Under the pieces are notes generated by a model. That model was not told the DNA's origin. It saw nothing but the letters and a program-made list of their open reading frames with translations, and did not search any database. Shown in pieces: positions 5,356 to 64,000 of a stretch of DNA of 64,000 bases. The number at the start of each line of letters is the position of its first letter. The first letter of the stretch is position 1. Made by a program: the position numbers and the translations under genes. This stretch comes from Laetiporus sulphureus 93-53 (Eukaryota > Basidiomycota > Agaricomycetes > Polyporales > Laetiporaceae): NCBI RefSeq assembly GCF_001632365.1, contig NW_024468522.1, forward strand, positions 265,030 through 329,029. The letters run 5' to 3'.

Positions 5356-8042
5356 TTATAGGGGAAATTCCGGCCCATAGTCGAGAAACAGCTCGGATCC
5401 AGCGGATATAAAACGTTCTGAAGAGGATGTCAGAGGGAGGGATCGTAGACGGCTACAACAAACTCACTGGCAAAGATGCCTATTCGGTGGTCACCGTTAA
5501 CCAGGAGGACTATCAATGCAGCAAGTATGATGAGTCATAATAAAGCAGGGAGCTCAAGGCTCACTTTCAACAGAGCAGTTCGCTTGATGGGAGTGATTGA
5601 TGAACCTGGCTTCGTTCCCTACAAAGGCGCTATCGACGTTCATGGACGCATTTAGTCCGTAGACGTAGCTACGTCCCCGATGGTAGGAAACTTCGCTGCC
5701 AACAGTAGATCAGATTCGCAAGTCTACACGAGATCGTTCGGTCAATCTCACCTTCGAGTGACGAACGTCGGTTCGTAGATGAGCTCGCCGACGTACTCTG
5801 AGAACAACGCATGATTATAGTGTGCACCGCGATCAAGATGGAGAATGATACCTGTGATCAAGTCCCCCTCCGAGGCGGACTCGAGGAGGAACACACCAAG
5901 ACCGAAGCTGCCTCGCTTGACTTCAACTTTCTGAACATAGCACGTCAGTTCGTCAAGCTGCATGCAACGCTGACTGGTACTAATACTCGCTTTGACATGC
6001 CCCTTTTGCAATCGAGAGTTGCAGCAGACGTTCTTTTCTGAGTCTGCGTGTTCGTGATCAATCATCTTATAAGAGATCGCTCGGCGAAGAATGCAGCTTC
6101 TCACTCCTGAGTCACATTGGGGTCAGCTTTGCACGCAATGAAAAGGTCGGAGCATGGAGCCTACTGTATATCGCACGTGGAGCAAAGCTCTGGATCGCAT
6201 TCGCGATTAGTTTGACGGCACGGGCAGCGACCAGCGAGGCACATTTGCGGTTTTGAACCTTTCCTGCCGCAACGGCATCCAGTCCAACGAATGACACCTG
6301 TCGTCAGTCCAGGTCAGTTTTTGATGGCAGATGTACAACAATACGCTCGTACAGTCAATGTCGCAACGGCAATTTCTCGAACAGCGTACACCGTTTCGGA
6401 AGCAAGGACAGTCGTTCGCTCGATTGCAGGGTCCGTTATGGTTACATGGATGTTCGCTGGAGAAGGTGTGAGCACGTTATGCCATCAAAAAATTTGCGGG
6501 AGAAACGTACGGTGTAAAATCCGTGGGATTGTCATCGACTTCGATGCATTAGTCAGATAAGTGGCTTCATCCAATATTTGAGCTTGAATGTCGCTCACCG
6601 AATTCAAACGGCAGTTCCGGACTTCGAGTACCAAGTTCCCAGTCCGTATCGTCGAAAGGCGTACTCATCCCAGGAGACTTGCAGATCGTTGCTACCTGAA
6701 ATTATTCGAGTCATCTCCATCGAAAGAGAGGCAATGAGAAATGTCCTACCTCGTTGCATGGTTTGCGGCAAAGGGCAGCGAGCTCGCACTCGCTCGCACC
6801 GGGGAAAATATGCAGGAACGTTCGCAGATTTTTGACATCTACAGAGCTCCATGGTATGACGTCTTCGATGCCTTAAGTCGTTTCAAGATGGAATACATTC
6901 TGGAACGCAGAGCAACCCATGTTCATACCTTTGAAATTCAGATGGCAACCACGGCCACACGCTATGGCTTCTGGATCATCAGCAAGCGCATGCAGAGAGA
7001 CGTTCCGGAAACGATTGTCGTGTAGACTCAATGTGACCTGCTGGAAATCTGTACGCGATTAAAAAAAATCCGTCAGAAGATGTAGTCTTATAAAGGAAGA
7101 TCAACATACCATGAGATAGACAATGAGCTTGCACACAATTGAGATTAGGGCAGAACAGCGTTAATTCTTCCTGGAGGAGAGTAGTTAAATTCCGAGCATC
7201 AGGCACCAGCGTCCTCGCGACAGAGGAGATAAATGGCTTCAGGGCATCGGACCAATGAGCTAGATCGCTGAAGTAAGGAGTCAGTAGCTATATGCGGCCA
7301 AAATTGCTACATGTGCACCCACTTCTGGGAACCCGTCCAAATTGCCCCTGGAGTGGAAGAATATGTGCCCAGCCGAATTGGAAGAACGGCAGTCTCATCA
7401 ATATGAGCAGTTGATATGCCAAAGTGAAGGCTGAGTCGACGAGCGCTCTCTAGTACGATGCAGAGGACTATCTTATAAGTGCGCGTTGCATATGAGGTGA
7501 CGGGGAACAGACTTACGGTTCGGGTCTTTGGAATTTGTCTGCCATGCCAAGGTATCATATTCGAGCATATGGTTTCGAGCGTCGAAGAAGGAGTCGTCGG
7601 CAAATGGAACGAATGGCATGTCGCTTGAGTCATCTCCGTGCAAGATATTGATATTGATGGGGGCGCAAGACTCGTACGTATTGCATGGCTCGACGATCCC
7701 TACATCCACAGACTCGAAAATTGTCAAGGTTTCGACAGCAAAGGATCCGTTGTCTCCGATGTTGTACATTGTAAATAAGCATTCTGTGTCGTCTTCGGTG
7801 GTCTCGGCGGAGGCATCCGGAGTGGCCGGTCTGTCGAGTGGCAGGCTCAAGTCAACGTCTGGAGTAGCAAAAAGGCGTTTTCTTCCGAAAGCAGGAGAGC
7901 AGGCCAGGGAAACAATTGATAATTTGGAGTGTTCTTGTTCCCATGAATAGAACTCGTTCCAAACCGCGTCGAAAACGGACTGTACCCGCTCAGTAGTGCG
8001 TTCCAGAGCATCGAGTTCGAGAGAATTGGATTTTGCGATCAT
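5356..8042 (-). CDS. KMT6: E(z)/EZH2-type H3K27 methyltransferase, gene A
   Basis: E(z) proteins are the catalytic subunit of Polycomb repressive complex 2 and methylate histone H3 Lys27. Reading down the minus strand: exon 1 (8042-7517) has the N-terminal block AVWNEFYSWEQ; exons near 7449-7110 end in LFCPNLNCVQAHCLSH; then ACGRGCHLNF; a SANT-like block LHIFPG...LCRKPCNEV (about 6840-6745); a CXC domain, PCNHNGPCNRANDCPCFRNG (about 6455-6396) then RCPCRQTNRECDPELCSTC (about 6220-6165); and a SET domain with KRGSFGLGVF, EYVGELIYEP, ARFINHSHQANC (about 5605-5570), VNGDHRIGIFAK and ELFLDYGPEF before the stop. All catalytic SET motifs are present. About ten small introns join in frame. The protein is roughly 550-600 residues, compact for the family. 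It is divergent to the dipeptidase gene at 8460. Confidence 0.9.
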
Positions 8043-8459
8043 CGGAGAAGGTGCTAGAAAGCCGTACTCTCAATAGTACGCGCGAGGATGAGATGCTGTA
8101 GTGGGTATTACACAAGGTCATGTAAGTGGCTATAATCAACTCACCTTGCAAATTGAACAACACGTTAGCGCTGTGGCCGAGGCTGAGCACTTGACAGTGT
8201 TTCCACAATTTTCGTGAGCGTTTCTCGCCTATAAACGATCAAAAGGCATCGAAACATAATAATTTTTTTCGATCTCGACCTGTGCGACTGTCGGTAATTC
8301 CGAGATTAACGCTCTCCGAGTCATTATGAGATATCATGTTGAGAGTGGTTTTCTCACCCAGACTTTGCCCTCGACGCGCGATCTCTGCCACAACGCTATG
8401 CTGATCTCTTCTCAGCAGTCGTAGAAGAAGGAGATAGCCTGCAACTCGCCTACAAAAAT
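8043..8459. promoter_or_regulatory. Shared divergent promoter, E(z) gene A and dipeptidase
   Basis: About 417 bases separate the two divergent starts. On the minus strand an open stretch at 8208-8146 could splice in frame to just before the gene A ATG (donor GGTGAG, acceptor CTAG near 8054). It has no ATG, so it more likely marks a 5' UTR intron. No defined operator is visible. Confidence 0.4.
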
Positions 8460-10402
8460 ATGTTGATGCTGTCGAGAGTAGGATCACTACACCTGCCTTT
8501 TCAGGGACGTCGAGTAGCCATTCAAATTAGTCGAATTCGCGCCTCTCATATCATCTCTCGGCCACTCTCATCGTCGCGATCTCTCAGCATGCCGGCCCCA
8601 GACAAGTTCCTCAGCTTCATCGACGAGCATGCAGACAAGTTCATCAAGCGTCTCGGGGAGGCCGTCGCAATTCCCAGGTCAGTATACATCAGCCGAGGCG
8701 TCGCACGTTGATCCCGACCCATCGCACGGCCACCAGCATAAGCGGCGATGCGGCCCACCGGCAGGACGTCTTCAAGATGGGCAACTGGCTGCAGGGCCAG
8801 CTGAACACCGTCGGCGTGCAGACGAAGCTCGTCGACCTCGGCAAGCACGTCATGGACGGCCAGGAGCTGCAGCTGCCGCCCGCGATCCTGGGGCGGATCG
8901 GCGACGATTCGAAGAAGAAGACCGTGCTCATTTACGGACACTACGACGTGCAGCCTGCTGAGCTGAGCGATGGCTGGGATACGGAGCCGTTCAAGCTCGT
9001 CGTGGACGAGGCGAGCGGCCGGCTGATCGGGCGCGGCGCGACGGACGACAAGGGGCCTATCCTGGGATGGCTCAACGTGCTCGAGGCGCACAAGACGCTT
9101 GGACTGGAGCTTCCTGTGAACCTGCGCTTCTGCTTTGAAGGAATGGAGGAGAGCGGGAGCGAAGGCCTGGATGATCTGATCAAGTCTGAGGTGGCGAAGG
9201 GCAAGGACGGTTGGTTTGACGGAGTCGACTGTGTCTGCATCGTGAGTTTTCGCGGTTCCACTCGTTACCTCCCTCATTCACTCCTCCTGCCAGTCGGACA
9301 ACTACTGGCTTAACAATCGTACGCCATGCATTACGTACGGTCTTCGCGGAATTGCCTACTTCAAGGTGACCGTGTCCGGCCCGACACGCGACCTCCACTC
9401 TGGTATCTTTGGGCGGACGGTATATGAGCCGATGACGGCCCTCGTTGCTCTCATGAGCAAGCTGGTCGCTCCCGACGGCACCATCCTCGTCCCAGGTGTT
9501 GAGGATTTGGTACCAAATGCCACCGACGAAGAAATGTGCGTCTCAATGTGTCTCGGTGCGATGATACTGTTCGACTGAAAGCGCTCAGAGCGATCTATAA
9601 TAAGCTGGATTACTCTGTTCAGGACGTGGAGCAGGCTGCGGGCGCGCCTATCGCCATCTCCTCGGACAAGGCTACGGTGATTATGGGCCGCATGCGCATG
9701 CCTTCTCTCTCCCTGCACGGCATTGAGGGCGCGTTCTCCGGTGCGGGTGGAAAGACTGTCATTCCCGCAAGCGTCTCGGGCAAGTTCAGTATCCGGTAAG
9801 GGCTCCGAGAGATTCTCTCCTGAGCATGCTCTTACCGTGAATAAAGTCTGGTCCCACCCCAGACGCCCGAGGACATCGCAACGCTCGTGGAGAAGTACCT
9901 CAAGGACGAGTTTGCAAAGCTCAATACGAAGGCGACGCTCAAGATTGAGAACCTGCACGGTGGTAAGCCATGGGTCGCTGACCACAAGCACTGGAATTTC
10001 GAAGCGGCAAAGATTGCAACCAGGGTTCGCGAACTCGTTTCGTGGACTTTGTACATGTACTGACCGCCGTCGCAGGCCGTCTACAACAGGGACCCTGACC
10101 TTACCCGTGAAGGTGGCTCAATCCCTGTGACGCTCACCTTCGCTGACAGTCTTGGTGTCAACGTCCTTTTGTTGCCCATGGGTCGTGGCGACGACGGCGC
10201 TCAGTAAGTGGTCCGAGTGCGTCGTGTTCAGCATGAACCTCATGCCTTTGGCAGCTCGACAAATGAGAAGCTCGACCGATCGAATTTCCTCAAAGGCGTA
10301 TGTCTGCTTTCTACAACATGCGTCATGTAACTGATATCATCGTTACAGAGCAAACTCTTGGGAACCTATCTGTACGAGGTCGGTGCGATCGCAACTGCTT
10401 GA
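8460..10402 (+). CDS. DUG1: M20 metallodipeptidase (CNDP2/DUG1-like)
   Basis: This family hydrolyses Cys-Gly and other dipeptides using two metal ions; in yeast Dug1 works in glutathione breakdown. Visible motifs in order: IYGHYDVQP (metal His and Asp, about 8932), [10 protein letters not shown] (bridging Asp), [11 protein letters not shown] (catalytic and metal Glu, about 9137), [12 protein letters not shown] (about 9382), [12 protein letters not shown], and GRGDDGAH with the final metal His split by an intron at about 10203. The first intron is 8678-8736 and gives [13 protein letters not shown]. Two in-frame starts exist: ATG 8460, whose 43-residue leader is Arg/Ser-rich with no acidic residues, and ATG 8589, which matches the family's usual N-terminus. 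Confidence 0.9.
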
Positions 10403-10577
10403 ATCGGTAAATCTGAAGGACCACCTTTGTGAATGGCGGGGTTTTTGTGCATCTGTGTGTTTGAATAGCTTGCAAATGTATGAACTGCTGTATCGATATA
10501 CAAGTTGTGACATTGGTCTGAAGGAGCAAGGAAAGCCGTCGAAGGTATCTGGACTGAAAAGCATGCGGTGACTAGAT
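10403..10577. other. 3' flank of dipeptidase gene
   Basis: Probable 3' UTR and intergenic sequence before the retroelement target site. No gene is seen. Confidence 0.5.
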
Positions 10578-10590
10578 TATTGAACCCCAC
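10578..10590. repeat. Target-site duplication, copy 1
   Basis: The 13 bases TATTGAACCCCAC occur here directly against the T-run and again at 11885-11897. They bracket the LINE relic exactly as a target-site duplication should. Confidence 0.85.
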
Positions 10591-11884
10591 TTTTTTTTTT
10601 TTTGTTTTTTTTGAGTACAACATGCAGGGTAGCATTGAGCCGCGATAGCAGCTCTACGACTAGTGGTATATACAAAGATGAGGACACGTGAAAATGAGAT
10701 GGTCCCGGACACGCGAAGGACTATGCGCACGTGGAGCGAAAGAATGATATAGCGAAATGCGGGGGAAAGCGGTAAGGGGCGAGAAGACCCTGGCGCATAG
10801 AAACTATGAAACGCATACCATCTCGCCACGAGCCCCACCCGCTCGAAACATTCCAGTCAGTATGGGCCTCCTCCCCGGGTCCCTAATCCCGCGGTGTTTC
10901 AGTGCCCCACCAGGCCACCGCACGACTTCAAAGGGTGTCGACGGGAACCCGCTTGAATGGCCATCGACAGGCCAGTTGAAGAAGGGTTTGGCTAGGTGAG
11001 TGAGGGTCAGGATGGTCAAGTCCTGTGCGTAGGCGTGTTGCTGAGTTCGACTGGGGCGGTTGCTGACACTATAGAAAAGAATGGAAAGATATCGAAGAAA
11101 TCTATAGGCTCATGGCGTTGGAACGCCCCCGTTGCTCAGGATGGCGATAATTTTTCGTGGTCGGGCAGGATGCGCTGTCGCTGGCGTGGCGTCCACCACA
11201 GTTGATGCATTTGAAATGGCCGCAGGTTGTAACCAGGCCCGTGCTCGCCTAGAGGGTGTTGCACGCCTGGCAGACATCTTGGTGTGAGTCGTCGCGATGG
11301 TTGACGCTGCCGCAAAGGCGGCAGGCCGGTTTCCTGTTCTTGGTCGGGCAGGTGGACTTGCGATGTCCCATGCGCCAGCAGTGTGTGCATTGAGCAAAGA
11401 TCGGGCGGTCGACGTACTCTTTAACGGAGAGACGTTGGCAGTCCAGGAAGACAAACCGGGAGCCCTTGGCGAGGAGCTGGGATGCAATAGTGCCGTTCGG
11501 ATCCTCGACGGCAAACATAAGTGGGGCCCGTTCCTTCTGCGCGAGTTGATCGGCCGGGCAGAGATACCGTGGAATAACCGAGAAGTGGGCACCAGCGAGA
11601 ACAGGATTGACCTTGAGGTGGGCACAAAGCTGCTCACCGGTTTAAGTGGGTTGATCGGGCGAAGGACGGGTGAGAGAGCCAGGGATGAAGAATTTCGACC
11701 AGCGCACAACTGGGCGCATGTCCGACTGACCACCTGTAGCCGGGACAGGAACGTCCAGCACCGAACGAACGATGGATGCGGCCTCTTCGATGAGTGATTG
11801 GGGGGTCGATGTTGCCCACTGGAACGCAAGCTTGCGAGCGGGCGTGAAAGTGACGGCGAAAAGGACAATCCCCTTGAATGAGGG
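10591..11884 (-). mobile_element. 5'-truncated LINE (Tad1-like), gag-type ORF1 relic
   Basis: A non-LTR retroelement inserted on the minus strand. Its poly(A) tail is the T-rich run at 10591-10612 on the plus strand. Reading down from 11884, the remaining ORF1 contains gag-like sequence and three CCHC-type zinc knuckles: CTHCWRMGHRKSTCP (about 11400), CRLCGSVNHRDDSHQDVC (about 11310) and CINCGGRHASDSASCP (about 11210). These lie in more than one frame, so the ORF is broken. No endonuclease or reverse transcriptase is present: after ORF1 the sequence goes to a 3' tail within about 500 bases. The element is therefore 5'-truncated and either internally deleted or derived from a gag-only non-autonomous form. 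Confidence 0.85.
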
Positions 11885-11897
11885 TATTGAACCCCAC
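11885..11897. repeat. Target-site duplication, copy 2
   Basis: Second copy of TATTGAACCCCAC, identical to 10578-10590. It marks the 5' junction of the LINE. Confidence 0.85.
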
Positions 11898-12225
11898 ATA
11901 GCACTCTAATGTACGCGAGCCCCTTTATGGATATGTTTCTCTCAGCGTCCGCCACGGGATGCTGGCCCGCTGTGGCCACCAATGAACGCGTCGACCGCAG
12001 AGTTCGCGTCGATCGTATACGAACTACTCCTGATCACGTGCCCGCCGCGTCTTCCTGCGAGATTGTTCGCACCGCCGCCTTCGCACGCGATGAACCTGCT
12101 ACAAGCAACTCTCGAGACCAGCAGTCTCGCGTTGAACGACACAGCGCACCTCAATTCCCTGCGTTGTCACTGACTGGACAATTTGCGCTCGCGGAAGAGG
12201 CGGCGACCAGCACTGGCATATCATC
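11898..12225 (+). promoter_or_regulatory. Proximal upstream region of HAP3
   Basis: About 330 bases between the LINE junction and the HAP3 ATG. It contains a CCAAT on the plus strand near 11977. Since the HAP complex binds CCAAT, self-regulation is possible but is only inferred. Confidence 0.3.
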
Positions 12226-12790
12226 ATGTCGGAATCATTCGCGCCTCTGAACATTGCTCCCCAAGATGACGGCACGGGAGTCATTGCGCCGTCCTCAGCA
12301 GACGCACCAGAGCCTGCGCCGATTACTGAGCAGGAGGTCGGCGAGTACCGCGAGCAGGACCGCTTCCTCCCCGTACGTCGCATCCCACACCCCCAATGCT
12401 TTCGCCCACTGACTCCGCACGCAGATCGCGAACGTTTCGCGCATCATGAAGGCTGCCGTGCCGGGCACGGCGAAGATCTCGAAAGAGGCGAAGGAGTGCG
12501 TGCAGGAGTGCGTCTCCGAGTTTATCAGCTTCATCACGTCCGAGGCTGCGGAGAAGTGCCAGATGGAGAAGCGCAAGACGATTGGGGGCGAGGACATCCT
12601 CTATGCGATGGTCACGCTTGGCTTTGAGAACTATGCGGAGACGTTGAAGATTCACCTCGCGAAGCTGCGGCAGGTGTGTGCTTCTGTGTTTGAACGGTGG
12701 TGGTTGACTGACAACGGGTGGCTTTTGAAGCATCAGGCCACTGCCAATAGCGAGAAACGAGAAACTGGCGAGACGCACGGAGAGGAATGA
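12226..12790 (+). CDS. HAP3: CCAAT-binding factor subunit HAP3 / NF-YB
   Basis: NF-YB is the histone-fold subunit that pairs with NF-YC and, with NF-YA, binds CCAAT boxes. An acidic N-terminus ([15 protein letters not shown]) leads into the conserved core: [73 protein letters not shown]. Intron 1 is 12373-12424. After KLRQ at 12673 there is a 63-base stretch (12674-12736) with GT and AG ends and a branch-like CTGAC. It is probably an intron, but it is also open and in frame, so retention would add 21 residues. The start is the ATG opening the acidic N-terminus. Confidence 0.93.
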
Positions 12791-13124
12791 TCAGATATCC
12801 ATTGGACACGTTTGTGCGACATTCCCATATAGCTGCGTGTACTATAATGTCGGACCCCCACTTCCCTTCCCCAAGAAAGCACAAGCTACGTAACTATCTC
12901 GCACAACATCCTTTATCGTTCGTTGGAAGCCTCACCGGTAGTCTTCGCTGTTCAGTGCATGTGAAACACGGTGAATAGATGAAAAGGTGACAGCCATTTA
13001 GATACATGAAAATGTACATATGTATGCGGTGATAAATGAATGGCGAGACATTATATAGCTACTTGATGGGACAAACATACAATACATATGGAACCTGAAA
13101 CATTTCCATCTATGAAGGGTGCAT
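12791..13124. other. Convergent 3' region
   Basis: AT-rich sequence between the convergent ends of HAP3 and the minus-strand gene. No gene is seen. Confidence 0.5.
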
Positions 13125-14476
13125 TTACTCTTCTCCCCTTCTCGCAAGGAACACGCCCATATCGCTCTTGGTCCTTTGAATACCGCGCAGGCCCACACTC
13201 GGGAACGGTCCCGATGCAGCTTTCGCACCCTCCTGTGCGTTTGCTTGTTCACGGGCCAGGTCCAACGTCCCGCCGGGGAAGCCCTCGAATTGACCATCTG
13301 TCTCGTGAGATGCAGCGATGGCGGGGAGATCGAAGGTGGGCTGTTCCGGAGGTGGTGAAGGTATAGATGGTGATTGGGTGGCGGATGCGGACGAGTGTGA
13401 GTGTGCTTCGGAGAGCTTGGAGGAGAGAGACTTCGACCGGGTCGACTTGCGTTTCTTCTTCCGGTCGGAGGGCTCGGAGCTGAGCGCGGGAAGGATAGGG
13501 GCAGAACCTTGCGAGAAGTGGTAATGGTGATGTCGGGAGGACCCAGTATTGGAATTTGAGTTGGATGCAGAGGTACGTGAGCGTGAATCCGATGCGCTGC
13601 CTCCCGCAGTTGCAGCGTTGGGTGCCGCACGCGTGTAATCCTCTGCGCCAAAATCGGCGTCATCTTCGGGTTCCTCTGGCTCCGCTTGAGCAAACGGACC
13701 GAATTCTTCAATGAAGTGAGAACCAGCGAGAGATGCAGAGCCAGAACCGGAGGTAGGATCTGATGCTTCGTACGGTACACGGCCAGGCCCACTTCCCTAC
13801 AGAGCGAATGTCACGCTAAAGAGGGGGACACTTTAGAGATGGAGACACTACACACCTGGAACCCCTGGAACGATTCTTCTCCAGCACCGTGCATGTCCAG
13901 AGCCATGGCCTGCGCCAGCCGCTTCAATTCCTTTCTTTCCTTCTTCAACTTCCGCCGTTCCTCCCTCGCCCGGCGCTGCTCTTCCTCCGCTGCAGCGGTA
14001 GCGGCGGCCAGACGAGCCACGGACGCCTCATCGAGAACAGACGGATCGAGCGGCGACGCATCTGAGTCGAGTGTCGATGAGGAGACTGTACGGCTCCGCC
14101 GCCTGGACCTGAGCAGATTGTCTTCCTCGTCGTCAGTTTCGGGCAGTTGTATAGGCGGGCGGCCGAAGAGGTCGAACCCAAATAGCCTGATGCCCTTGCG
14201 TGCGCGGCGGCGCTTCCTCCGCCGCCGCTCGCCAGGATTGGAGTGCAGCGAGAGCGTCTCGGCGTCCGCTGAGTCCGAGTCGGCGAGGAGGCCCTCGAGC
14301 TCGTCTGGACGTGCGCGCGGAGGGGGCATAGTGTGTATCAGTGCGCTATTGCGAGTACTGTGCGCATTCTGCGCGCTGTCGTGGCCGCTTTCAGAGTCGG
14401 AGGAGTGGAAGCAGATGAAGCAGGACGATAGAGCGGCGTGGAGACTGTCTGACCACGAAAACTGCAAGCTAGACAT
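13125..14476 (-). CDS. Uncharacterised Ser-rich, coiled-coil protein
   Basis: I do not recognise this family. The chosen start is the ATG at 14476 (MSSLQFSWSDSLHAALSSCF), a hydrophobic, Cys-containing N-terminus. Next come a basic run (RRRRKRRRARKG), a GIRLFGFDLFGRPP segment, an acidic DDEEDN patch and a strongly charged helix (EEEQRRAREERRKLKKERKE) likely to form a coiled coil. One intron lies at about 13798-13858. Exon 2 is Ser/Asp-rich with a His cluster (SSRHHHYHF), a second basic stretch (SDRKKKRKSTRSKSLSSKL) and a short C-terminus ending LARRGEE at the stop, 13125-13127. Exon 2's frame lacks an ATG, and the longer open frame in the same place is a shadow. The layout suggests a largely disordered protein, perhaps membrane-associated through its N-terminus. 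Confidence 0.75.
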
Positions 14477-15023
14477 CTGCGCGTATTCTATCGCAGTGAG
14501 ATGCGGGGTATATGAGTGTTTAGAAGCGTTGAGTCGTGGATGGGAGAGAGTTGAGCGTGAACATTCAGGTGAACCAGTCAAACCGTGCGCCGTGCACGAG
14601 GACTAGCTCGTGATTCCAGCCCAATCTCGTGTCTAATGGAGATCCGGAGCTGTACTGAGTTGAGTCTTTGTCGCGGACGATTGCGCCCAGCACTGCCAGA
14701 GCTAAGCTGTATATTCCGCATGGATCCCGCCGCAGGAGGTCAGAACAGTTCCAGCTGCTCTCAGTCAGTGCTCGGTCGTATGTGTGACTGCAGTTGGTCA
14801 CAGTAAGTCACAACGCGCTTGCATGTCACGCTGATGTTGCGCCAGTGAGACTGCCTGCTTATATACCTCTCACAACAAGTGCTCTCGACTTCTGTATACA
14901 CACCGCACACCGAGAACGACAGGGCTGGCAACACGGCATCTTCAATTCAGAGGGACCACGCTCATCTGTACCGTATCCCCAGGACGAACGTAGCAATTGC
15001 AACGAATTCCACGATTGACAAAC
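14477..15023. promoter_or_regulatory. Divergent intergenic region upstream of ATG18
   Basis: About 550 bases between divergent starts of the Ser-rich protein and ATG18. It presumably holds both promoters. No clear TATA box or repeat is visible. Confidence 0.4.
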
Positions 15024-16678
15024 ATGGCAGAACGTGTCAACACCAACATGCTATTTGCCAACTTCAATCAAGACTTTACGTGAGCGTACATTGTGCCGTA
15101 AGGTGATCGCCGCTCAACGACGCAGGTGCATATCTGTCGGGACACGGAAAGGCTACAGCATCACCAACTGTGATCCGTTCGGCAGGGTGTACACCAAGAG
15201 TACGTCAGTGGCCGTCAATGCGCCTGCACGCTCGTTCGCTTACTCGGCTTATAGATGATGGTGCAAAGGGGATTGTCGAAATGCTTTTCTGCACGTCGCT
15301 CATCGCGCTCGTCGGTGCCGCCGATCAGCCACAATCTAGCCCACGCAAGTTGCAGATTGTGAACACGAAGGTATGCCCATCCCGTCCAAACCTTGCACTC
15401 CTGTGATGATTTTTGCGTCTTCCGCTATCTGCTCGCAGCGGCAATCCATGATCTGCGAACTCCTCTTCCCATCCTCTATCCTTGCCGTGAAGATGAACCG
15501 CAAGACGCTGGTCATCGTCCTCGAAGTAGAGATCTACATATACGACATTTCGAACATGCGGCTCATGCACGTTATAGAGACAACACCAAACCCTGAAGGT
15601 CAGTACTCTCGGCCCCTGTTTAGTCACAGCGCATAAACTCGGCTCGTCTGCGCAGCCATCGTCGCCCTCTCCCCCTCTACCGACAATTCCTACCTCGCAT
15701 ATCCCTCTCCGGTCCCCTCTCCCACCTCGCCGCTCGCTCAGCCATCTGTCCAACCCGCCACACCGTCCTCGTCAGCACAGCAGACAGGCGACGTGCTCAT
15801 CTTCTCGACACGCTCGCTAACCGTCGCAAACGTCATCCAAGCGCACAAGTCGCCGATTTCCTTCCTCTCGATCAACTCGGCGGGGACGCTGCTTGCGACC
15901 TCGTCCGAGAAGGGCACCGTTATCCGCGTCTGGAGCATTCCCGGAGCAGAGAAGCTGTACCAGTTCCGCCGCGGCACGCGTGAGGCGCGCATATACTCGA
16001 TGAACTTCAACCTTGTTTCAACACTCTTGGCGGTCAGCTCCGCACACGATACGGTGCACATATTCATGCTTGGCCAGCAAAAGGCATCGCCTGCTGGTCT
16101 GAAGACGCCGTCGAGTCCATCGGAGTCGGTGGACAGCCGGGAAGGAACGCATAACCTTGATGGAGGGTACGATGCCTACGTCGATAAGAAGCGGCATGGA
16201 AGCGTATCGTAAGTGTCGGTCTAAATCAATCAGTCTGTCCACCGTGTTCAAAATCGATGATTGCGTGTATAGTCAGGCGCTGCGGCGAAGGTCAATACAT
16301 CTCACGAAGAACATCACATCATCGGTGGGAGGCTACTTGCCCAATACACTGACAGAAATGTGGGAGCCATCGCGAGACTTTGCATTCCTGAAGCTACCAA
16401 CAAGCGGGGCACGATGTATCGTTGCTATCAGCGGGTACGTGCGCTCGCTGCAGCCAAGCTCCGCTTACGTGACATGTTTGTGTGCAGTTCATTACCTCAA
16501 GTGATGGTGATATCCTCGGAAGGCTACTTCTATTCTTATAGCATCGACCTGCAGAATGGCGGGGAATGCTCGTTGTTGAAACAGTATAAGTATGTGTACA
16601 GTCATTCACATTGTGCTTCGCAGTCACTGAACTCTTTGGATAAGCTTGCTGGACTCCAGCGAAGAATCCAACGATTGA
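15024..16678 (+). CDS. ATG18: PROPPIN ATG18 (WIPI), phosphoinositide-binding autophagy protein
   Basis: ATG18 is a seven-bladed WD40 propeller that binds PI3P and PI(3,5)P2 on autophagosome and vacuole membranes. The N-terminus [20 protein letters not shown] is typical. The propeller includes [65 protein letters not shown] and the lipid-binding FRRGT motif at about 15964-15978. Next comes a long insertion ([19 protein letters not shown]). The last exon ends [10 protein letters not shown], a usual ATG18 ending, at the stop 16676-16678. About seven small introns join in frame. Position between ATG18 and the paralogue HSV2 was judged from the C-terminus. Confidence 0.9.
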
Positions 16679-17361
16679 ATTCGCCATCTGCAAATGATGA
16701 TGGCCCATATCCTGGTTGTGGTGTGGCGATTCTTCATGTTTCCGACCGTATCAACACTGTACACAAATATCCCGGTGCAATGGTGTTCACCGACCGACGA
16801 TACTCTCACGTCCTGCAGTAGAATGTGTACATAGCAATACTCGTTTATGCTGGTTCCGCAGGACTTTGGTCGTTTTCGCTCGTTTTCGCTACAATATTGC
16901 CCTGTACTTGAATCACGCATTGATTGGTGTCCGAGTCTATACAATATACTTATTACGTAGTTCTGGAGGAGTATCTCGGCCTGCAGCTATTCAGTGTGGC
17001 CGAATTACGAACCGTTGTATTTTGCTTCCGCGAGCGTACCGCAAGATCTCGATCGCGTTTCATGGCATAGCGCGCCTAACCCACGGTCAGCCACCCACGC
17101 GTTTTCCTCACGCTCATCGTCTTCGAAATGTCGCCTTATTCTTTGTTGCCGGCGACGTCTCCGTTTGTCCTGCATGTCGCTTCCGCTCTTGACTCTTGTG
17201 ACCGACTAGTCCGTTTGTTGACGCATATAGCTACATTTCTAGTGATCCAACTCAACGGGGAGTCGGGACCGACAGTTCAAATCGGCTCCAGTTGCCACCT
17301 TCGCCAACTTGAGTCGTATCTCGCCGGCGAGTCACAAATCTAAGTTACTCTCGAACGAAAC
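16679..17361. other. Intergenic between ATG18 and E(z) gene B
   Basis: About 680 bases. It should hold the ATG18 3' UTR and the gene B promoter. Open frames here give no recognisable protein. Confidence 0.4.
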
Positions 17362-20130
17362 ATGGAAGGAGCAACTAGTGATCTTGACCCGATCTCGCAT
17401 TCAGGAATCAACATGGAGGGCCCGGCCATTGTGGACAATGAAGACCCAGAAGTCACGGAGGAGACCTTGGAACGTTCACAACGCAACATAGAGCGCGCAA
17501 GGGCCAATCGTGACGAAAGAAACAGAATACGGTCTGAATACATAGCCGTATGGAACGAATTTTATGACTGGGAGCCTCGGGCGTGCTTGTCGATGGTGCA
17601 AAGTCTTAGTGCCATGATCGAAGGTGTCGGAATTGCCAACGTCAGGATTGAAGATGCCGCTTATCTCTCTGAATACGTCCACGATATGATTGTTGATGAA
17701 GAATCATCGCCGGAGCTGTTCACGCTTCATGATCTGGAATATGACGGACATGTGACGGTCGTCAATGAAACGCGTAACGTGGGCATGCTGTTTCCTTACC
17801 CCAAGTACGAGTGCTGCGCCCCTACGATGCGCAATATCAAAACAGACGAGCGCGAGAGCGTCCTCCGTTTCGTACAGTACGCTGGAGAATCAGGCTTCGA
17901 TGAACGTGCACTAGTCGAAGAGAAAAGAGTGCTTGGCTGGCAGTATCGATGGCAGAATCCTGACAGTCAGTCGCACACGTTCAATTTATATTCCTTGATG
18001 CACATTCCTCACAACTATGACACTTCGCAGTGTTGCTCATCGCAGTCGAGACTGTGAAACGCTTGAACAATATATCGATGTCGTACGAAAGTATCGATCG
18101 GCAGAAGCTCCTTCCGCCTTTGGAGTCGGTTGACAATCGTCCCGGATTGTTTCAGAGGATGTATAGGCGGTACGTAGGTCTATGGAATTTGTAACGATCG
18201 CTCATCACAAGGCAACAGGGACCTCTGGAGCTGGGAAAGCCATGCGGGACCATGCGGAAACGACAGGACTGCCCGGGCTGCTATCGACACCCGTCTCTTC
18301 GAGCAAGTAAATGAATATGTCAATTGCTTCTGTCCCAATATGAACTGTCTTGATATTCTATGCCTGCCGCACAGTAAGTGTTACCGCCTACAAAGATAAG
18401 CGGCAGAGGCATCATATGCTGCTCACAGAGGAGCCTACCGCCAGATTATTCGAGGGAAATCCTCACATAACTTCCGACGCAATGAGGACACAAACCAGAC
18501 GGCCGTGCGGTGATCAATGCTTTCTGTCGTTCCACGAAGATGAAATGGTGCGCTTGGACAGACGCGTCGGTCCCGAGGGCTGCATTTGATAACTTCGTAG
18601 GATATTATCGAATGGCCGAGTGCATACGATATCCACGTCATCAATGGCGTCTTGCATATCTTTGCAGATGAAAAGCCGTGCAAATTGAGTCGATTCTGTC
18701 GATTGCCTTGCTATCAGGTCTGCTTCACTTACTCTAGAAGCATGCTTCATGGTCTCATTAATCATAGATCTACCTTCAAAGACGTGAACTGTTCCCTGAC
18801 AAGTTTATATCGCCAGAAACTCGAGCGTCACAAGGGGGTATATTACAATCATTCCGTAAGACATCTAATGTCCAGAATTTCATATATTGACATATCCTAT
18901 AGAAGATACTATAAACAATGATGACGGAGAACGATTTAGCCCGTGAGCTTGAGCCTGATGCCATGGTTGCTGCTCAAATGGTCTCTGACACTTTGGCAGG
19001 ATTGATTTCTGCTATCATTCTGGGCCATGTAGTAAGAAATCAGGATGCCCATGCTTTATAAATGCATTGCATTGCAGGAGAAATTGTCGCTGCAACCTCA
19101 ATTGTTTGTACTTCTACTATCTATCACATTGTGGACCTTTTGTTGAAATGTTTTTACATTCCACAGGCAAGCTGCGCTATCCAGGTTGTAAATGCATGGG
19201 TGATTGTGATACAAGATGCACATGTGTTTTAGATGGAAGGGAATGTGACCCTGAAGCATGTAAACAAAGAAAGAGGTTTTTGTCAGCTCTTTGTAACTGT
19301 AAGGCTTCATATTAATTTTACACACAGGAACTTGATCTTTGCACCAAAAACCAAGAACTGTATGTCAGCAGATGCACCTTCAAAGTGACATTTTTTAAAA
19401 AGGTTGCAGACCATTCCCTCAGACATCGCTGTGAGAATATGCATCTACAGCTAAGCAAGTTTCCTGTGATTTTTCTCATTTGTGCTGTGGGTCACTTCTA
19501 CTGGACTAATATAACAATGTCAGGAAATCATCATCAAAACTGGTCTTCATGGTCTGGGTACCTTTGCTGGCAAAGAAGTTGTCAAAGATGCACCCATTGG
19601 AGGTCAATGAATTATCACATCTATAATTTAAGCATGATAATCAAGATATGTTGCAGAATATGTTGCAGAACTTTTCCCGGAACAGGCTGTAGAGCAGTAG
19701 GTAGACTGTGTTGCATATCAGCAGTATCTGACCTCAGATATCTTTCAGGATGCTCGCAGACCACATTGGCTTGAACTACACCTTCAATCTGAATCAAGCA
19801 CAAGTACTGGACTCAGCGCATGTGGGCAATGAGACCAGATGCGTCAATCATCTACCATCTGAACGAGCCAATGTCGACGTGAAGAGTATATCTTCTAACA
19901 TTTTCGAGAAACATCAATGCATATCCTCATCGGCCGTGTTTCACAGTTGAATATGTGAATGGAGACCATAGAATCTTATTTTATGCTAGTAAGACAGTTT
20001 CGTATGTTAGCGCGCACAGCTGATGTCGCCACAACTAGAAACAAGGATATCTAGTGGTCAAGAGCTGTTCTTCGACTATGGACCCGGATACTGGAAGGGC
20101 AAAGATCCGTCCATGCTTATCCAAGCATAA
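17362..20130 (+). CDS. Divergent E(z)/EZH2-type SET protein, gene B
   Basis: A paralogue of gene A. Exon 1 (17362 to about 17966) holds YIAVWNEFYDWEPRA, matching gene A's block. A phase-1 intron then follows NPD, as in gene A after DPN. Later blocks align in order: CFCPNMNCLDILCLPH (about 18330); RRPCGDQCFLSF; a SANT-like block VLHIFADEKPC...FCRLPCYQ (18640-18719); CXC domain HSGPCSKKSGCPCFINALHC (about 19019-19070) and GCKCMGDCDTRCTCVLDGRE (about 19182-19241); SET domain with KTGLHGLGTFAGKE, EYVAELFPEQ, NETRCVNHLPSERANV (about 19830-19877), YVNGDHRILFYAK and ELFFDYGPGYW near the end. The usual RF(I)NHS reads RCVNHL, and the following NC reads NV. Exons from about 18600 on are noticeably AT-rich. 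All joins I tried keep frame, so the gene looks intact. Catalytic activity is uncertain. Confidence 0.85.
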
Positions 20131-50166: not shown

Positions 50167-53100
50167 ATGAAGCTCAAGGAGATCCATAGGACGTCGACGT
50201 TCGCGTGGTCTCCGTCGCCGTCACTCCCCCTGCTGGCAACGGGGACGGTCGCGGGCGCGCTTGACGAGTCCTTCAGTAACAATGGACAGCTCGAAATATG
50301 GGCTCCGGACTTTTTGGACAAGAACCAGTTCGACTTGGGCGAGGAAGGTCAAGCAGGGCCCAAGGCATCCGTCACGACCACGTCAAGGTGTGTAGCAGGC
50401 TGCTGAGATGCACTTCATCGTTGTCGAACGTCGTGACCATACGCGCAGATTCAACCGCCTCGCATGGGGATACACTGATGGACCTCGTGCGCGTGGTGTC
50501 ATCGTCGCAGGCATGGAAAACGGCGAACTTGACATCTGGGATCCTGCCAAGATTCTTGCTAATGCAGAGTAAGTACCTGCAAGTCGTATAACGCGTCGCA
50601 TTGCCCGCTGACCGTCTGCATTATCAGTCCTGCGGATTCATTAATACTAAGAAATAAGACGCACACGGGCGCGATCCGCGGTCTGGATTTCAACCCTATT
50701 CAAATGAACCTGTTCGCTTCCGGTGCAGTCAACGGGGAGGTGCGTGTCATGACATCGCGGGACGCGCAGCGCGCTCAGCACGTTGCAGATATATATATGG
50801 GACCTCAAGGATCCGAGCAAACCATACTCTCCCGGAACCCGTAGCACGAAACTTGATGAGATCACCGCTCTTGCATGGAACCATCACGTCCAATATGCTC
50901 TCGCGGCATCGAGCAGCACGGGATACACGGTCGTGTGGGATCTTCGTGGAAAACGAGAGGTTGCGGCATTGGCGTACGGTGGTGGTGCCGGTACGCTAGC
51001 AGGAGGCATGCAAGGATTTGGTGCAGCGGGTATGGCGATGGGTGGAAGACGCGGTATGAGCGATGTCGCTTGGCATCCAGACAATGTCGGTGTTCTGCTG
51101 TCTGATAGTGGTCGCCATGCTCATGGACTTTGCAGGCAACAAGATTGGTCACGTCTTCTGAGGACGACACGTCTCCTATTATCATGGTATGGGATCTCCG
51201 AAACGCTCGTGCGCCCGAGAAGGTCTGAAAATGTTGCATAATGTTATCTGTTTGAAGTACTTAGATGCTTTCAGATCCTTACAGGGCATGAGAAGGGCGT
51301 CCTCTCGCTATCGTGGTGCAAGCAAGATGCTGACCTGCTGCTTTCCTGCGGTAAGGACAATCGCGCACTATGCTGGAATCCACAGACGTCGGAGATCATC
51401 GGCGAGGTATATATTCTGTCGCTTCCAAGCAAACAGCCACTGATCTATCATTATAGCTGCCTCCTGCAGATAACTGGGCATTCCAGGTTCAATGGTGCCC
51501 TCGGAATCCTGACTTGTTTGCGACCGCGTTCTTCGACGGCACGATCGGCATCCATTCAATCCAGTCCACGAACGAGGCGAGCCAAAACGTCCCAGCCACT
51601 CCGCAGCCTGATGCTTCTGACATCTTCGGTGCGAGCGGGTTCGCTCGTGCGTCGCGAGCAACACTTTCCCTCAAACATCCTCCAAAGTGGTTGCGCCGCC
51701 CAGTCTCGAGTTCTTTCGGTTACGGTGGTAAGCTTGTGTCTGTGTCCAACTTGCCGTCAGCGCATGGGAGGACGCAAAGCAGCGTCGTCCATATCCGCAA
51801 AGTGGTCACTGAGAAGTCCATTGTGGAGCGTGCGACCAAGTTGCAGGCTGCGATAGAGGGTGAGACGATGAGCAGTTTCGCTGAGGAGAAGACTGCAGAA
51901 GTTCTGCGAGAGCCTCAGGAGACTTCTGCAACCTGGAAAGCATTGTTGAGCTTGTTCAAGGCAAACTCCAGGGACGAACTCATCACCCTTCTGGGATTCT
52001 CGAAAGAAGAGGTGGCAGCGAAGGTTGCAGAGGCAGTGGCTGCTCTTAAAGCCGCGTCGCAAAGTTCTGCAGCTGAAGCGAAAGGCGAAACAACTGAGAC
52101 GGAACTCAAGGCTCCCGTCGTCTCGTTCGCAGAACCTGAGAGCGAGGCTCGTTCCGATAGCGGCGAAGACGTGTCCTTGGAGTCTACTGGAGCTGTAGCT
52201 GAGGCGACGCCCTCTGAGGTCAGTACCGGTGCTGCGTCTGATAACACTAACACGGCCCTCGCCGACGGCGAGTCCACGACAACGGCGCCGAGCCTGTTCG
52301 GAGACGAACTGATCGGTACCCCGCAGACCGATGCTGCGGCAGACTTCTTCGGCAGTATTGGGACGGCGCGCTCAGCAGACGATCAGATGCGGATCCCCCA
52401 CACGAACTACGCGCTTGATTCGTCCGTAGCTGCTACGATCGGTTCCGGACCATCGTCAGTTACGTCGGAGGTGCTGAGGAACAACACGTTCAAGATCTAC
52501 CCGCCTGACGAATCAGAGACAGACCGGCTGGTGACGAAGGCGTTGGTGCTCGGTGACTTTGAGTCAGCAGTCTCCCTCTGTCTGTCGTCTTCTCGCTTCG
52601 CCGATGCCATCCTGCTGGCTGTCAAGGGTGGTCAGGAGCTCTTGCAACGCACGCAAAAGGCGTACTTCGAAAACCAGACCGCGACGCTTCCGTATTTGCG
52701 CCTGTTCCAATCCATCGTCACCAACGATCTCGCAGATGTCGTGCAGAATGCAGATCTGCAGGAGTGGCAGGAAATCTTCGTCGTTCTCTGCACGTTCGCT
52801 AGCCAGGAGGAGTTCTCTAGTTTGGCGGAGCAACTTGGCCAACGCCTTGAGTTCCAAGCAGACGTTGCAAGGGCTTCCGAGTTTCCCGGCGCAGAGCGGA
52901 GGGCAATTGAGTACAGGAGAAATGCGACTCTCACCTACCTCGCAGCTGGGCGATTGGAGAGGTTGGTCAATATATGGATCGAAGAGATGGCAGAGGAGGA
53001 ACATGGACTTGTTGAGAATGAGAAGCTTGATGGCTCTCGCTACACTGCTCACGCCCTCGCCCTTCAGACTTTCGTCGAGAAGGTCACCGTGTTCCGCAGT

Positions 53101-55001
53101 GCCATCCGCTATGAAGACACCGACCTCACGCAGAAGAGCTCGAACGAGGAAGCAGATGCAAGAAGCTACAAGCTCTCCGGTTTATACGATCGTTACTACG
53201 AATACGCCGATTTGCTCGCGTCGCAGGGCCTTGTTAAGGAGGCAGTTGCGTATCTGAAGCTCACTCCTCCAGACTACCACGGCTGGCCTGGTTCTGCATT
53301 GGACTTCGCGGAGGGCAGGGAGCGTCTACTGATTGCTGCTGGTGAGGGACATGCTGCTCGGACGTCATCCCTGCCGACCTCCACTACCACGAGGGCAGCC
53401 AGTGTTGCTCCAAGCAGCTCAATGTATGGATATACCTCATACTCTGCACTTAGCCAGCCTTCGGTTGTACCTCAGGTTCCTGCTTCATCATCGTCCATAT
53501 ACGAACCGTACAGTCGGGCGGGTCCAACCTCGCAGACCTATGCTCCTACAGCACCTGCAATGTCACAAATGCCCCCATCCCAGTCCTTCCAGTCAACGGC
53601 GCCCATGCCATACAACCAGAATGTCTACGCGCGTCCTCCGTCGCAGCCACAGCAAGCCATCCCGCTGGCCTCACAGCAACCCCATGTCCTACCTCCGCCA
53701 CCGCGTGCGACAAGCGCTATCCCCTCCGCACCTTCTGCGAAACGCGAGAACGGTGGCTGGAATGACGTGCCGCACCATGTCACCGGCCAGCGACGGTCGG
53801 GCAGCAATGCCAGCAGACCCGCCGCGATCATGTCTCCTTTCCCGAATGCACCTGCATCGCCGGGTATTCCCGGTACGCCCACCTTCGGACACGGACAGCC
53901 TCCTGCGACGCTCCCCCCACCACCAGGCCCTGGCAGTGTGCAGGCGCGTCCGCCGCCGCCACCCCAGGGACATCGTATGGCTCCTCCGCCGCAGGCTGGG
54001 CCGGGACCATACCCGATGCGACCACCGTCAGGTCCACCTGGTGCACCTGGCCAGCCGATAGCGCCGGGGCCGGGACGTATGATGATGACTTCCCCCCCTC
54101 CGAACGTCGGTGTGCCAAGGGCGCCTCCCCTTCCCGCTGTAACGCCAGATCCGTATGCGCCTTTAGCCCCGATACCAGGACAGACGCCTCCGCCACACGG
54201 ACATCTTCCTCCAGGTGCCCCTCCTCCTGGTCCATCAGGTCCGTATGTGCATGCAACGCCACCGCCACAAGGCCCTCCTCCCATGCAAGGACAGTTTATG
54301 CAGCGCATGCCACCCCAGCAACAGCAACTCCAGCCGGGGACCTTTGCCCCTCCATTGCCCCGCATGAATCAGCCTGCAGGACCGCCACCACCGCAAGGTC
54401 CACCGCAGGGTCTACCGCGCGGCGGAACACCTGGAAATGGCATTGGAGGGCCGTCTGCTCCGCCTTCGCGAGCAGGCCCCCCGCCTCCGAAGTATCGTGA
54501 GTTCGATCTCTGTTGAGCGTCACCGTGCCATCTGACGTCTACTTTTCCTAGCTCTGGGTGACCGAAGTCATATACCCGATGACTTGCTCCCTGTATACAA
54601 TGTCATATCTGGTCAGCTGGAGAGGGTGAAGCAGATTTCTCCGGTCAGTTCATGATAGCTCTTTGATAGGGAAGGATGACTGAGAACATGTTCATTCAGC
54701 CATCACAAAAACGTCTGACGGACGATTTGGAGCGCAGAATCAACCCGCTGTTCGACGCGCTCAACTGTGAGACGCTATCGAAGCACGTCCAAGAGAAGCT
54801 CATTGTGCTGTCTAGAGGTGCGTCCATTCTCCCTACATCTGCTGATAAGAAGTTGACCGATGGCATCTGGACGTAGCTATGGAAGCCCACGATCGTGAAG
54901 CGGCCCTGAACATCCATATGGACCTGCTCACCAGCGGCACGTTAACGGATGATATCGGGCTGTGGATGTCTGGCGTCAAACAGCTCATCGTGCGCTTGTG
55001 A
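50167..55001 (+). CDS. SEC31: COPII outer-coat protein SEC31
   Basis: SEC31 pairs with SEC13 to form the outer cage of COPII vesicles leaving the endoplasmic reticulum. The N-terminal WD40 propeller starts [16 protein letters not shown] and includes [75 protein letters not shown] and [20 protein letters not shown]. An alpha-solenoid follows ([40 protein letters not shown]). Then comes a very Pro-rich region (about 53400-54510) that recruits SEC23. The C-terminal helical domain uses three short exons: [40 protein letters not shown] and [20 protein letters not shown], with the stop at 54999-55001. Exon 51514-54516 is unusually long for this genome. About 1,350-1,400 residues, normal. Confidence 0.93.
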
Positions 55002-59232: not shown

Positions 59233-60532
59233 AAGCCGGCGTGTCCGACGGCATGAGCCTCACCAGGTCTAACGTTAGGATCGACCGGACGCACCTTCGA
59301 TCGACATCAGTATGCACACTAAAACAGTTTAAGATGAAGAGAGGTAAGAGAAAGGAGACAAGAGTTGAGTAGAGAGGAGGGCAGGGACCGGTGCAGCATG
59401 GAGTTCGGGACGGGTGTAATTTAATGGCTCTGAAGGAGACGGACGTGCCGGTCGCCGCAGCATACGTGAAGAATCCGGCTTCTCATTCGGCCTCAGGCAT
59501 CGGTCGGGGGCCCTCCGAGTGCAGAGGAGCGGGCACGATGCGCCAAGCACAAGAGGTGATAAGATCACGATCTGAGATTGCGCCGATCCTGCAATGGTAT
59601 CACTGGTATGCCCCGACGCTGACGGCATACGGTGGCTGGCAGCAATTGCAGCTCGTCATGATTGAAGCGACCATTGTCGTCAGCACACTTCTGAAATCCA
59701 AGTGGGGGAATCAGAAAATGCATATCGAAGCTGCAGAACCGCAGAAGGTTATCTATTGCATTTACCCATGCGTCAGTCTGCAGCTGGCCTTTGAGCATGA
59801 GGCTGCGACGGAGGAATGGCATGTATTCTGCCTAACAGGATAGCATTGGCGGCTGAGTACGCTTTGGATTACCAGGTACTGATAAGTATTTGGTGCCGAT
59901 ACTGCAAATGATTAATCAGCGGTAGCGGGCATCTAGGCTGCTGATGATCCCGTTAGTAAGTGAGGTTCCAGCCATCCACGGAATTGGGTGGTTACCAGGT
60001 TAATTCCAATGGACGGTGCGGTTGGAGGGGGGATGGGTTTGACACGTTTTTGTTTGCTATGTTCGCACCTGCGCGCATCGGTTGGCCATTTCTCGCGAAA
60101 GCAGGCCATGCAAGCGCACTGGTTATTCTGACACATTTCATATGAGGTCTGAATCTATCTTCAAGATAAACGACAGGATGCCACGGTGTATGCTTCAATC
60201 TAAATGAATTGGAAGGCGGCGTACGCAAAGCTTAAGACCCCTTTGAGAAGGTCAACGGCGGGAAGCCCCGAGCATAAAAATCGACAAATAACTTTGATGT
60301 ATGAAGTATGAACAACCCCTCCTTGTTCAGCCACCGACTACTGGCGCGCAATTCAAGTTCCGATAAATACAGGTCACGTTCACGTGCGCAACGTGCTGAA
60401 GCGAGCAGTGGCAGCAGTCCCACCAGGGCGCATCAAGGACCCCGTGACCGCAAAAGTTCATGACAGCGCTGTTTGTAATCTGCTCGTCGTTGTCTGCGGC
60501 GACCATCTCCACCCTCATCCACCACCACCACC
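59233..60532. other. Divergent intergenic region before BRR2
   Basis: About 1.3 kb. A plus-strand 150-codon frame (59391-59843) has no recognised domain and no joinable exons. The promoters of the RTA1-like gene and BRR2 must lie here. No repeats are seen. Confidence 0.35.
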
Positions 60533-63500: not shown

Positions 63501-64000
63501 CAGAAGCGTGCGGACATTGCGCATACGGCCGCCGTCATTCTTGAGAAGTGCCACCTCATCAAGTACGAGCGGGCATCTGGACGATTCCACAGCACCGAGC
63601 TGGGTCGTATTGCCTCTTATTACTACGTGACACACAACTCGATGGCGACGTACAACCAGCACCTCAGGCCAACGATGACAACGCTGGAGCTTTTCAGGGT
63701 ATTTGCTCTGTCCAATGAGTTCAAATTGTTGCCGGTATGTGAATTTGGTGTTGTTATAATCATATATGATACTCAATTTGCATGCTTTTACAGGTTCGAC
63801 AAGACGTAAGTGGCATCTGTACGATATCCCAGAATACAGGTAACTCATTTGGTGCGCGTCTAACAGGAGAAGCTGGAGCTGGGAAAGTTGCTGGAGCGAG
63901 TCCCTATTCCAGTAAAGGAGAGTGTCGAAGAGCCGGCTGCGAAGATCAACGTGCTTTTACAAGCATACATCTCGCAGCTCAAGCTTGAAGGTTCGTTGAG
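60533..64000 (+). CDS. BRR2: BRR2, U5 snRNP RNA helicase (3' end beyond window)
   Basis: BRR2 unwinds U4/U6 during spliceosome activation. The N-terminus ([20 protein letters not shown]) includes the plug-like [20 protein letters not shown], a strongly acidic run (about 61180-61340) and a PWI-like helical region. The first helicase cassette has CAPTGAGK, an intron (62119-62174) splitting the P-loop, then [78 protein letters not shown] and [16 protein letters not shown] Sec63-type start follows ([14 protein letters not shown]). After FKLLP comes a 12-base micro-exon (63794-63805, VRQD), then [18 protein letters not shown] to the window end. About half of the protein is present. Confidence 0.95.
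63794..63805 (+). other. BRR2: 12-base micro-exon of BRR2
   Basis: Flanked by TTACAG before and GTAAGT after, it encodes four residues (VRQD). It joins FKLLP to EKLELGKL in frame. Confidence 0.75.

Follow-up and report, generated by a model that had tools for sequence, protein, structure and literature searches.

How did Laetiporus sulphureus 93-53 come to carry two genes for E(z)-type histone methyltransferases near each other, and do both still encode enzymes? The two genes, here called A and B, lie in a stretch of 64,000 nucleotides of contig NW_024468522.1, which is referred to as the window. An original prediction, made from the sequence letters alone, had called both genes E(z)-type and had described them as a diverged pair suggestive of local inverted duplication. 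We consider it fairly probable that both genes are intact E(z) paralogues, with no further E(z) gene found in the genome, that a single gene rich in introns gave rise to them by duplication at the DNA level before the sampled orders of Agaricomycetes separated, that they have probably been linked since, and that they encode predicted H3K27-methylating subunits of Polycomb repressive complex 2 (PRC2) differing in their choice of substrate or partner. This reading builds on four direct observations: the family of the two proteins, their intact catalytic motifs, a tree with two clades and the introns common to both genes.

Splicing by hand gave the following models, whose limits coincide exactly with those originally proposed:

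Exons 8042-7517, 7467-7323, 7267-7110, 7048-6929, 6871-6750, 6695-6599, 6538-6511, 6456-6353, 6297-6165, 6096-5987, 5926-5852, 5797-5752, 5695-5565, 5509-5468, 5417-5356, minus strand: gene A, E(z)-type methyltransferase (hand splicing, GT-AG introns; match to LAESUDRAFT_713223; Pfam SET and CXC)
Exons 17362-17965, 18031-18169, 18219-18373, 18429-18547, 18601-18717, 18768-18837, 18903-18942, 19000-19103, 19167-19275, 19328-19359, 19410-19465, 19524-19602, 19657-19696, 19749-19885, 19947-19988, 20039-20130, plus strand: gene B, E(z)-type methyltransferase (hand splicing, GT-AG introns; match to P0001; Pfam SET)

Gene A comprises 15 exons (8042..5356, 632 aa) and gene B 16 exons (17362..20130, 644 aa). 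Neither contains an in-frame stop, and the introns of both (29/29) are GT-AG introns of 49-68 nt. The splice sites were picked with the protein family in view and individual boundaries may be wrong, the shakiest in gene A being the acceptors before 6096 and 5926. The NCBI protein LAESUDRAFT_713223 from the same strain (P0002) is identical to gene A wherever both models agree; part of its SET domain is omitted and its CXC exons are read out of frame, so that annotation scans would miss the CXC domain of gene A. A protein search with gene B returned no L. sulphureus B protein and P0001 as its sole match (41% identity over 96%), and an alignment search likewise returned P0001 alone. No third E(z) gene was found in the L. 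sulphureus genome. The 3′ half of gene B (18750-19999) is AT-rich, with a GC content of 0.39-0.41 per 500 bases, whereas gene A and the 5′ half of gene B have about 0.50. A 12-base unit, ATATGTTGCAGA, is doubled at 19646-19670, spanning the acceptor of gene B intron 12; this leaves two possible in-frame acceptors 12 bases apart, the second of which would remove four residues at the SET EYVA motif.

Both proteins belong to the E(z)/KMT6 family, as first proposed. On translation, a VWNEFY block, a Cys block (FCPN(L/M)NC), a SANT2-like block, a CXC domain and a SET domain follow each other in the order previously described, identical in A and B. The last four map as follows, A-type and B-type denoting the two clades of the tree presented below:

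7110..7155, minus strand: gene A Cys block, FCPNLNC..C..H (translation; Cys/His columns invariant; phmmer match to 4w2r_A begins here)
6750..6851, minus strand: gene A SANT2-like block, W...CRKPCNEV (translation; region covered by the P0010-EZH2 fold alignment)
6021..6452, minus strand: gene A CXC domain (PF18264, 24.5 bits; 17/18 human CXC cysteines)
5374..5903, minus strand: gene A SET domain (PF00856, 66.6 bits; Y641, N688, H689 and Y726 equivalents present)
18328..18372, plus strand: gene B Cys block, FCPNMNC..C..H (translation; Cys/His columns without variation across the 13 aligned B-type rows)
18613..18717, plus strand: gene B SANT2-like block, W...CRLPCYQ (translation; region covered by the P0001-EZH2 fold alignment)
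19010..19432, plus strand: gene B CXC domain (PF18264, 17.6 bits; phmmer match to the EZH2 CXC; 16/18 human CXC cysteines)
19551..20082, plus strand: gene B SET domain (PF00856, 49.3 bits; Y641, N688, H689 and Y726 equivalents present)

The Cys block occupies the position of the MCSS zinc motif of EZH2. The phmmer match of A to the EZH2 chain 4w2r_A begins at this block (residue 260), and a separate alignment of the same stretch of gene A with EZH1 was not significant (score -2.6). When the spliced proteins were compared with family profiles, the SET domain exceeded its Pfam cut-off (22.4) in both genes and the CXC domain its own (23.3) in A only; P0001, the relative of gene B, exceeds the latter with 32.1 bits, and PF18264 is matched at E 0.001 by 24 of 35 family members. 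The earlier description of a full CXC domain in both genes is borne out for A, with 17 of the 18 human cysteines, and nearly but not wholly for B, with 16. The four catalytic residues (EZH2 numbering) are kept in both proteins; cysteines and catalytic residues were counted over 42 of the 47 A-type and 13 of the 16 B-type rows. The best relatives of A and B in the PDB are EZH1/EZH2 and Chaetomium Ezh2, with E-values of 2e-34 for EZH2 versus 6e-21 for ASH1L in the case of A, and of 5e-30 for EZH2 versus 3e-9 for NSD1 in the case of B. The folds compared were those of the relatives P0010 (A-type) and P0001 (B-type) rather than of A and B themselves, and they align with EZH2 from near the N-terminus through SET.

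A protein search with gene A yielded at least 60 relatives, among 7996 candidates, and those carrying a name are presumably all Agaricomycetes, to judge from their genera. The main tree was built from A, B and 61 relatives (63 rows) and shows, at 100/100, two clades, one of 47 A-type and the other of 16 B-type rows. The A-type clade spans Polyporales, Boletales, Agaricales, Gloeophyllales and Amylocorticiales, whereas the B-type clade contains B and P0001 together with Agaricales, Jaapiales and Gloeophyllales. Orders were looked up for Heliocybe, Jaapia, Cyathus, Laetiporus, Plicaturopsis and Guyanagaster; the remaining genera are placed by name. A second tree, of CXC-SET columns, had 58 rows including three outgroup rows, eight rows having been dropped either because the CXC start was not found (P0002, P0031, P0061) or because they were short (P0037, P0055, P0056, P0058, P0060). 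This tree recovers the Agaricomycete proteins as one group (100/99) and, with 13 rows, the B-type clade (98/99). From the two multi-order clades and the cohesion of the B-type clade in the presence of an outgroup, we infer that the duplication predates the split of the sampled Agaricomycete orders, barring interspecies transfer, for every rooting under which the B-type clade stays intact.

An origin of the pair within the Laetiporus lineage, by a local inverted duplication of recent date and thus along the lines first suggested, would fit the inverted placement of the two genes 9.3 kb apart and their intron positions, most of which are common to A and B. However, only 33% of the aligned residues are identical (190 of 573 pairs in the family alignment), in keeping with the description of the pair as diverged, and no direct repeat linking the gene A and gene B regions was found at seed 12. 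Inverted DNA matches between the two regions number two, both short (20-21 nt), and one of them is a palindrome. A tree of E(z) homologues had been named beforehand as the observation that could overturn a local duplication, and it places A and B in two distant multi-order clades. A single clade of A, P0002, B and P0001 was rejected by the approximately unbiased (AU) test (p 2.06e-6). The test also rejected (p 2.2e-4) a duplication inside Polyporales, represented by a clade in which B and P0001 join 20 A-type rows of the Polyporales side, a group picked after seeing the tree. The AU tests thus reject A and B as a sister pair from a recent local duplication, and we regard such an origin as extremely improbable. 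The introns also bear on how the older duplication took place. Nine of the 14 introns of A stand at the same column and in the same phase as a B intron, and 12 of the 14 share their phase with a B intron within four columns; the nine shared introns point to a duplication at the DNA level, of a gene that would already have been rich in introns.

The spliced coordinates confirm that A and B point away from each other, the 9.3 kb being the distance from one gene start to the other. Both types were found in four species (L. sulphureus, Heliocybe sulcata, Cyathus striatus and Guyanagaster necrorhizus). They lie on one contig in three of these, as seen directly in L. sulphureus and as judged from equal contig sizes, a proxy for the same contig, in H. 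sulcata (796434) and C. striatus (955952). Because A-type and B-type proteins share a contig size in species of two other orders, their linkage is probably old, the products having stayed together since the duplication.

Several points weigh against the reading of an old, linked pair of active PRC2 enzymes. In G. necrorhizus the two types are on different contigs (1793957 and 2493464), as one would expect if old paralogues had been brought together in L. sulphureus by rearrangement instead of remaining linked. We judge this rather unlikely, since random placement would hardly give A-type and B-type proteins equal contig sizes in species from two further orders. In the outgroup CXC-SET tree the basal branching of the A-type rows is not resolved and Chaetomium thermophilum Ezh2 sits on a long branch; the only B-type row from Gloeophyllales, P0055, has no SET domain and is not part of that tree, so that its placement comes from the 63-row tree. 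Gene B itself lacks one CXC cysteine that is present in 10 of 13 B-type rows, its NHL stands against NHS in EZH2, and Ala takes the place of the Gly of EYCGE (EYVAE), features because of which it could be a weaker or changed enzyme. In addition, three of 13 B-type rows carry Asp in place of His689 (ND for NH). Together with the failure of the protein search to return an L. sulphureus B protein, these deviations raise a serious rival, namely that gene B is degenerating or non-catalytic, a pseudoenzyme that would scaffold or dampen a PRC2 catalysed by A. This rival has in our view a minor share of the probability, as the equivalents of Y641, N688, H689 and Y726 are all kept in B, P0001 is intact, and the 644 codons of B run without stop or frame break.

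The remaining points against two active enzymes concern their partners. The SUZ12 VEFS box (PF09733) was unmatched in the genome, in an insensitive test that left the control genomes unmatched too; SUZ12 can be missing in some fungi (PMC8788455) and its VEFS motif is hard to detect in some (PMC7348808). EED was not identified with a human query, a distant one searched exon by exon and therefore insensitive, which gave generic-looking WD40 matches (best E 6.7e-6). PF12265, the p55/MSI1-type histone-binding WD40 family, was above cut-off at two genes on contig C10, either of which is a candidate for a PRC2 role. Membership of A and B in PRC2 nevertheless appears likely from their family and domains.

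If both genes do encode active PRC2 subunits, what distinguishes them? Using thresholds of our own choice, we screened all 47 A-type and 16 B-type rows for columns that differ between the types and are conserved inside each; rows with a gap at a column did not count. One column of the whole alignment passed; it is residue 563 in both A and B, within SET:

5671..5673, minus strand: gene A R563 codon, clade-diagnostic SET position (Arg in 45/45 A-type rows with a residue, 47 in all)
19771..19773, plus strand: gene B L563 codon, clade-diagnostic SET position (Leu in 10/12 B-type rows with a residue, 16 in all)

In the set of 42 and 13 rows, the position is Arg in 42/42 A-type rows and Leu or Val in 12/13 B-type rows, the other being a gap. 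Its aligned counterpart in EZH2 is C663, two residues ahead of F665, and it may influence the choice of substrate.

Because E(z) acts on H3K27, the histone H3 genes of the host were also examined. The search gave histone matches at 15 places in the genome, a lower bound, and led to at least three H3 genes, on contigs C8 (L026), C15 (L024) and C52 (L025). A further, more divergent H3-like gene on C1 is probably CENP-A, as judged by eye. The spliced tails of the three H3 proteins read QLASKAARKTAPSTTGGVKK, QLAAKSQARKTAAATTGGVKK and QLATKARKTSTATATGGVKK. The three proteins vary in seven of the 13 columns that surround K27 and in three of 126 elsewhere (Fisher p 1.1e-6, a guide only, as the segment was picked after seeing the alignment), while 46-59% of shared four-fold sites differ. 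These figures indicate that the H3 genes are old copies, held fixed nearly everywhere but beside K27. The insertions and deletions sit on both sides of the common ARKT, and each of the three copies has an intron just 3′ of the K27 site, an arrangement that may have made such small changes easier. Changes flanking K27 have been described between basidiomycete species (PMC8046757); the available part of that source does not mention several H3 versions within one genome.

A and B would each provide the catalytic activity of a PRC2-like complex, methylating H3K27 and silencing chromatin. That species of three orders have kept both types suggests that the two are not redundant. Because both types were kept in at least three orders, because Arg faces Leu or Val near the lysine channel and because the H3 copies differ mainly around K27, A-type and B-type enzymes might share the same core chemistry and differ in their choice of substrate or partner; the difference could lie in the substrate flank, the partner or the timing of expression. 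The existence of two PRC2 flavours, raised in the original prediction, is plausible. A bolder proposal, which we hold to be improbable, is that mushroom fungi run two Polycomb writers matched to H3 isoforms, the A-type (Arg) and B-type (Leu/Val) enzymes preferring different K27 neighbourhoods, in which case two or three K27 marks, each written separately, could coexist in one nucleus.

A gain of E(z) in Agaricomycetes is already published: another copy was inferred to have been gained after loss in the Basidiomycota ancestor, and a duplication was noted in Armillaria gallica (PMC9692433). The two-clade split, the linkage, the residue difference and the comparison with H3 are absent from section 17 of that work. 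A single KMT6 is, as originally assumed, the norm described for characterised fungi (PMC12774646). Human EZH1/EZH2 resemble A/B in block order, CXC cysteines, SET catalytic residues, fold (via the relatives) and in being a retained paralogue pair, whereas A and B are about 630 aa long, 33% identical and physically linked, and EZH1 and EZH2 are close kin in the outgroup tree. Among fungal E(z) proteins, the CXC-SET region of A aligns over about 230 residues with C. thermophilum Ezh2, which stands apart from A and B in the outgroup tree; fungal KMT6 proteins, to which ascomycete KMT6 (SET-7) belongs, are described as longer than those of metazoans (PMC8788455) and as usually single (PMC12774646). 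Fusarium oxysporum, with Kmt6a/b/c, likewise has more than one KMT6 and functional extra copies, but these are located on an accessory chromosome, and the coding DNA of Kmt6b and that of Kmt6c agree to 98% (PMC12774646), in contrast to the old A/B pair. Cryptococcus neoformans, compared by description only, has a basidiomycete E(z) (Ezh2) in a PRC2 described without SUZ12, but one homologue is described there (PMC8788455). Among the matches listed from titles and abstract starts of the open-licence literature, a scope that leaves subscription journals outside, none dealt with two E(z) clades in Agaricomycetes or with K27-variant H3 sets in one basidiomycete, which is a weak sign of novelty.

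Studies of Polycomb in fungi are based largely on single KMT6 genes, and an old retained E(z) pair beside K27-variant H3 could help to account for the failure, in Schizophyllum, of an antibody against human H3K27me3, for which altered H3 sequence or absence of the mark was named by the authors (PMC8046757). The pair and the H3 set offer a natural test of the joint evolution of a histone site and the methyltransferase acting on it. Such genes are concealed by automated models: the CXC domain has been lost from the public model of A, and the protein search brought back no B protein of L. sulphureus.

The genes between A and B are unrelated to them, as previously noted. Three of the eight frames scanned there have a family:

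8531..9313, plus strand: M20 peptidase, part of gene (PF01546, 76.2 bits on 157 aa of the frame)
12413..12790, plus strand: NF-YB/HAP3 histone-fold subunit, part of gene (PF00808, 87.3 bits)
15637..16212, plus strand: PROPPIN (Atg18-type) beta-propeller, part of gene (PF21032, 81.3 bits)

An open frame at 11249-11641 (minus strand) has CCHC-like zinc-knuckle patterns and looks gag-like by eye, with no Pfam match at E 0.01. Outside the pair, long open frames occur on the plus strand at 51457-54516 (1019 aa), 60479-62125 (548 aa) and 62028-63809 (593 aa).

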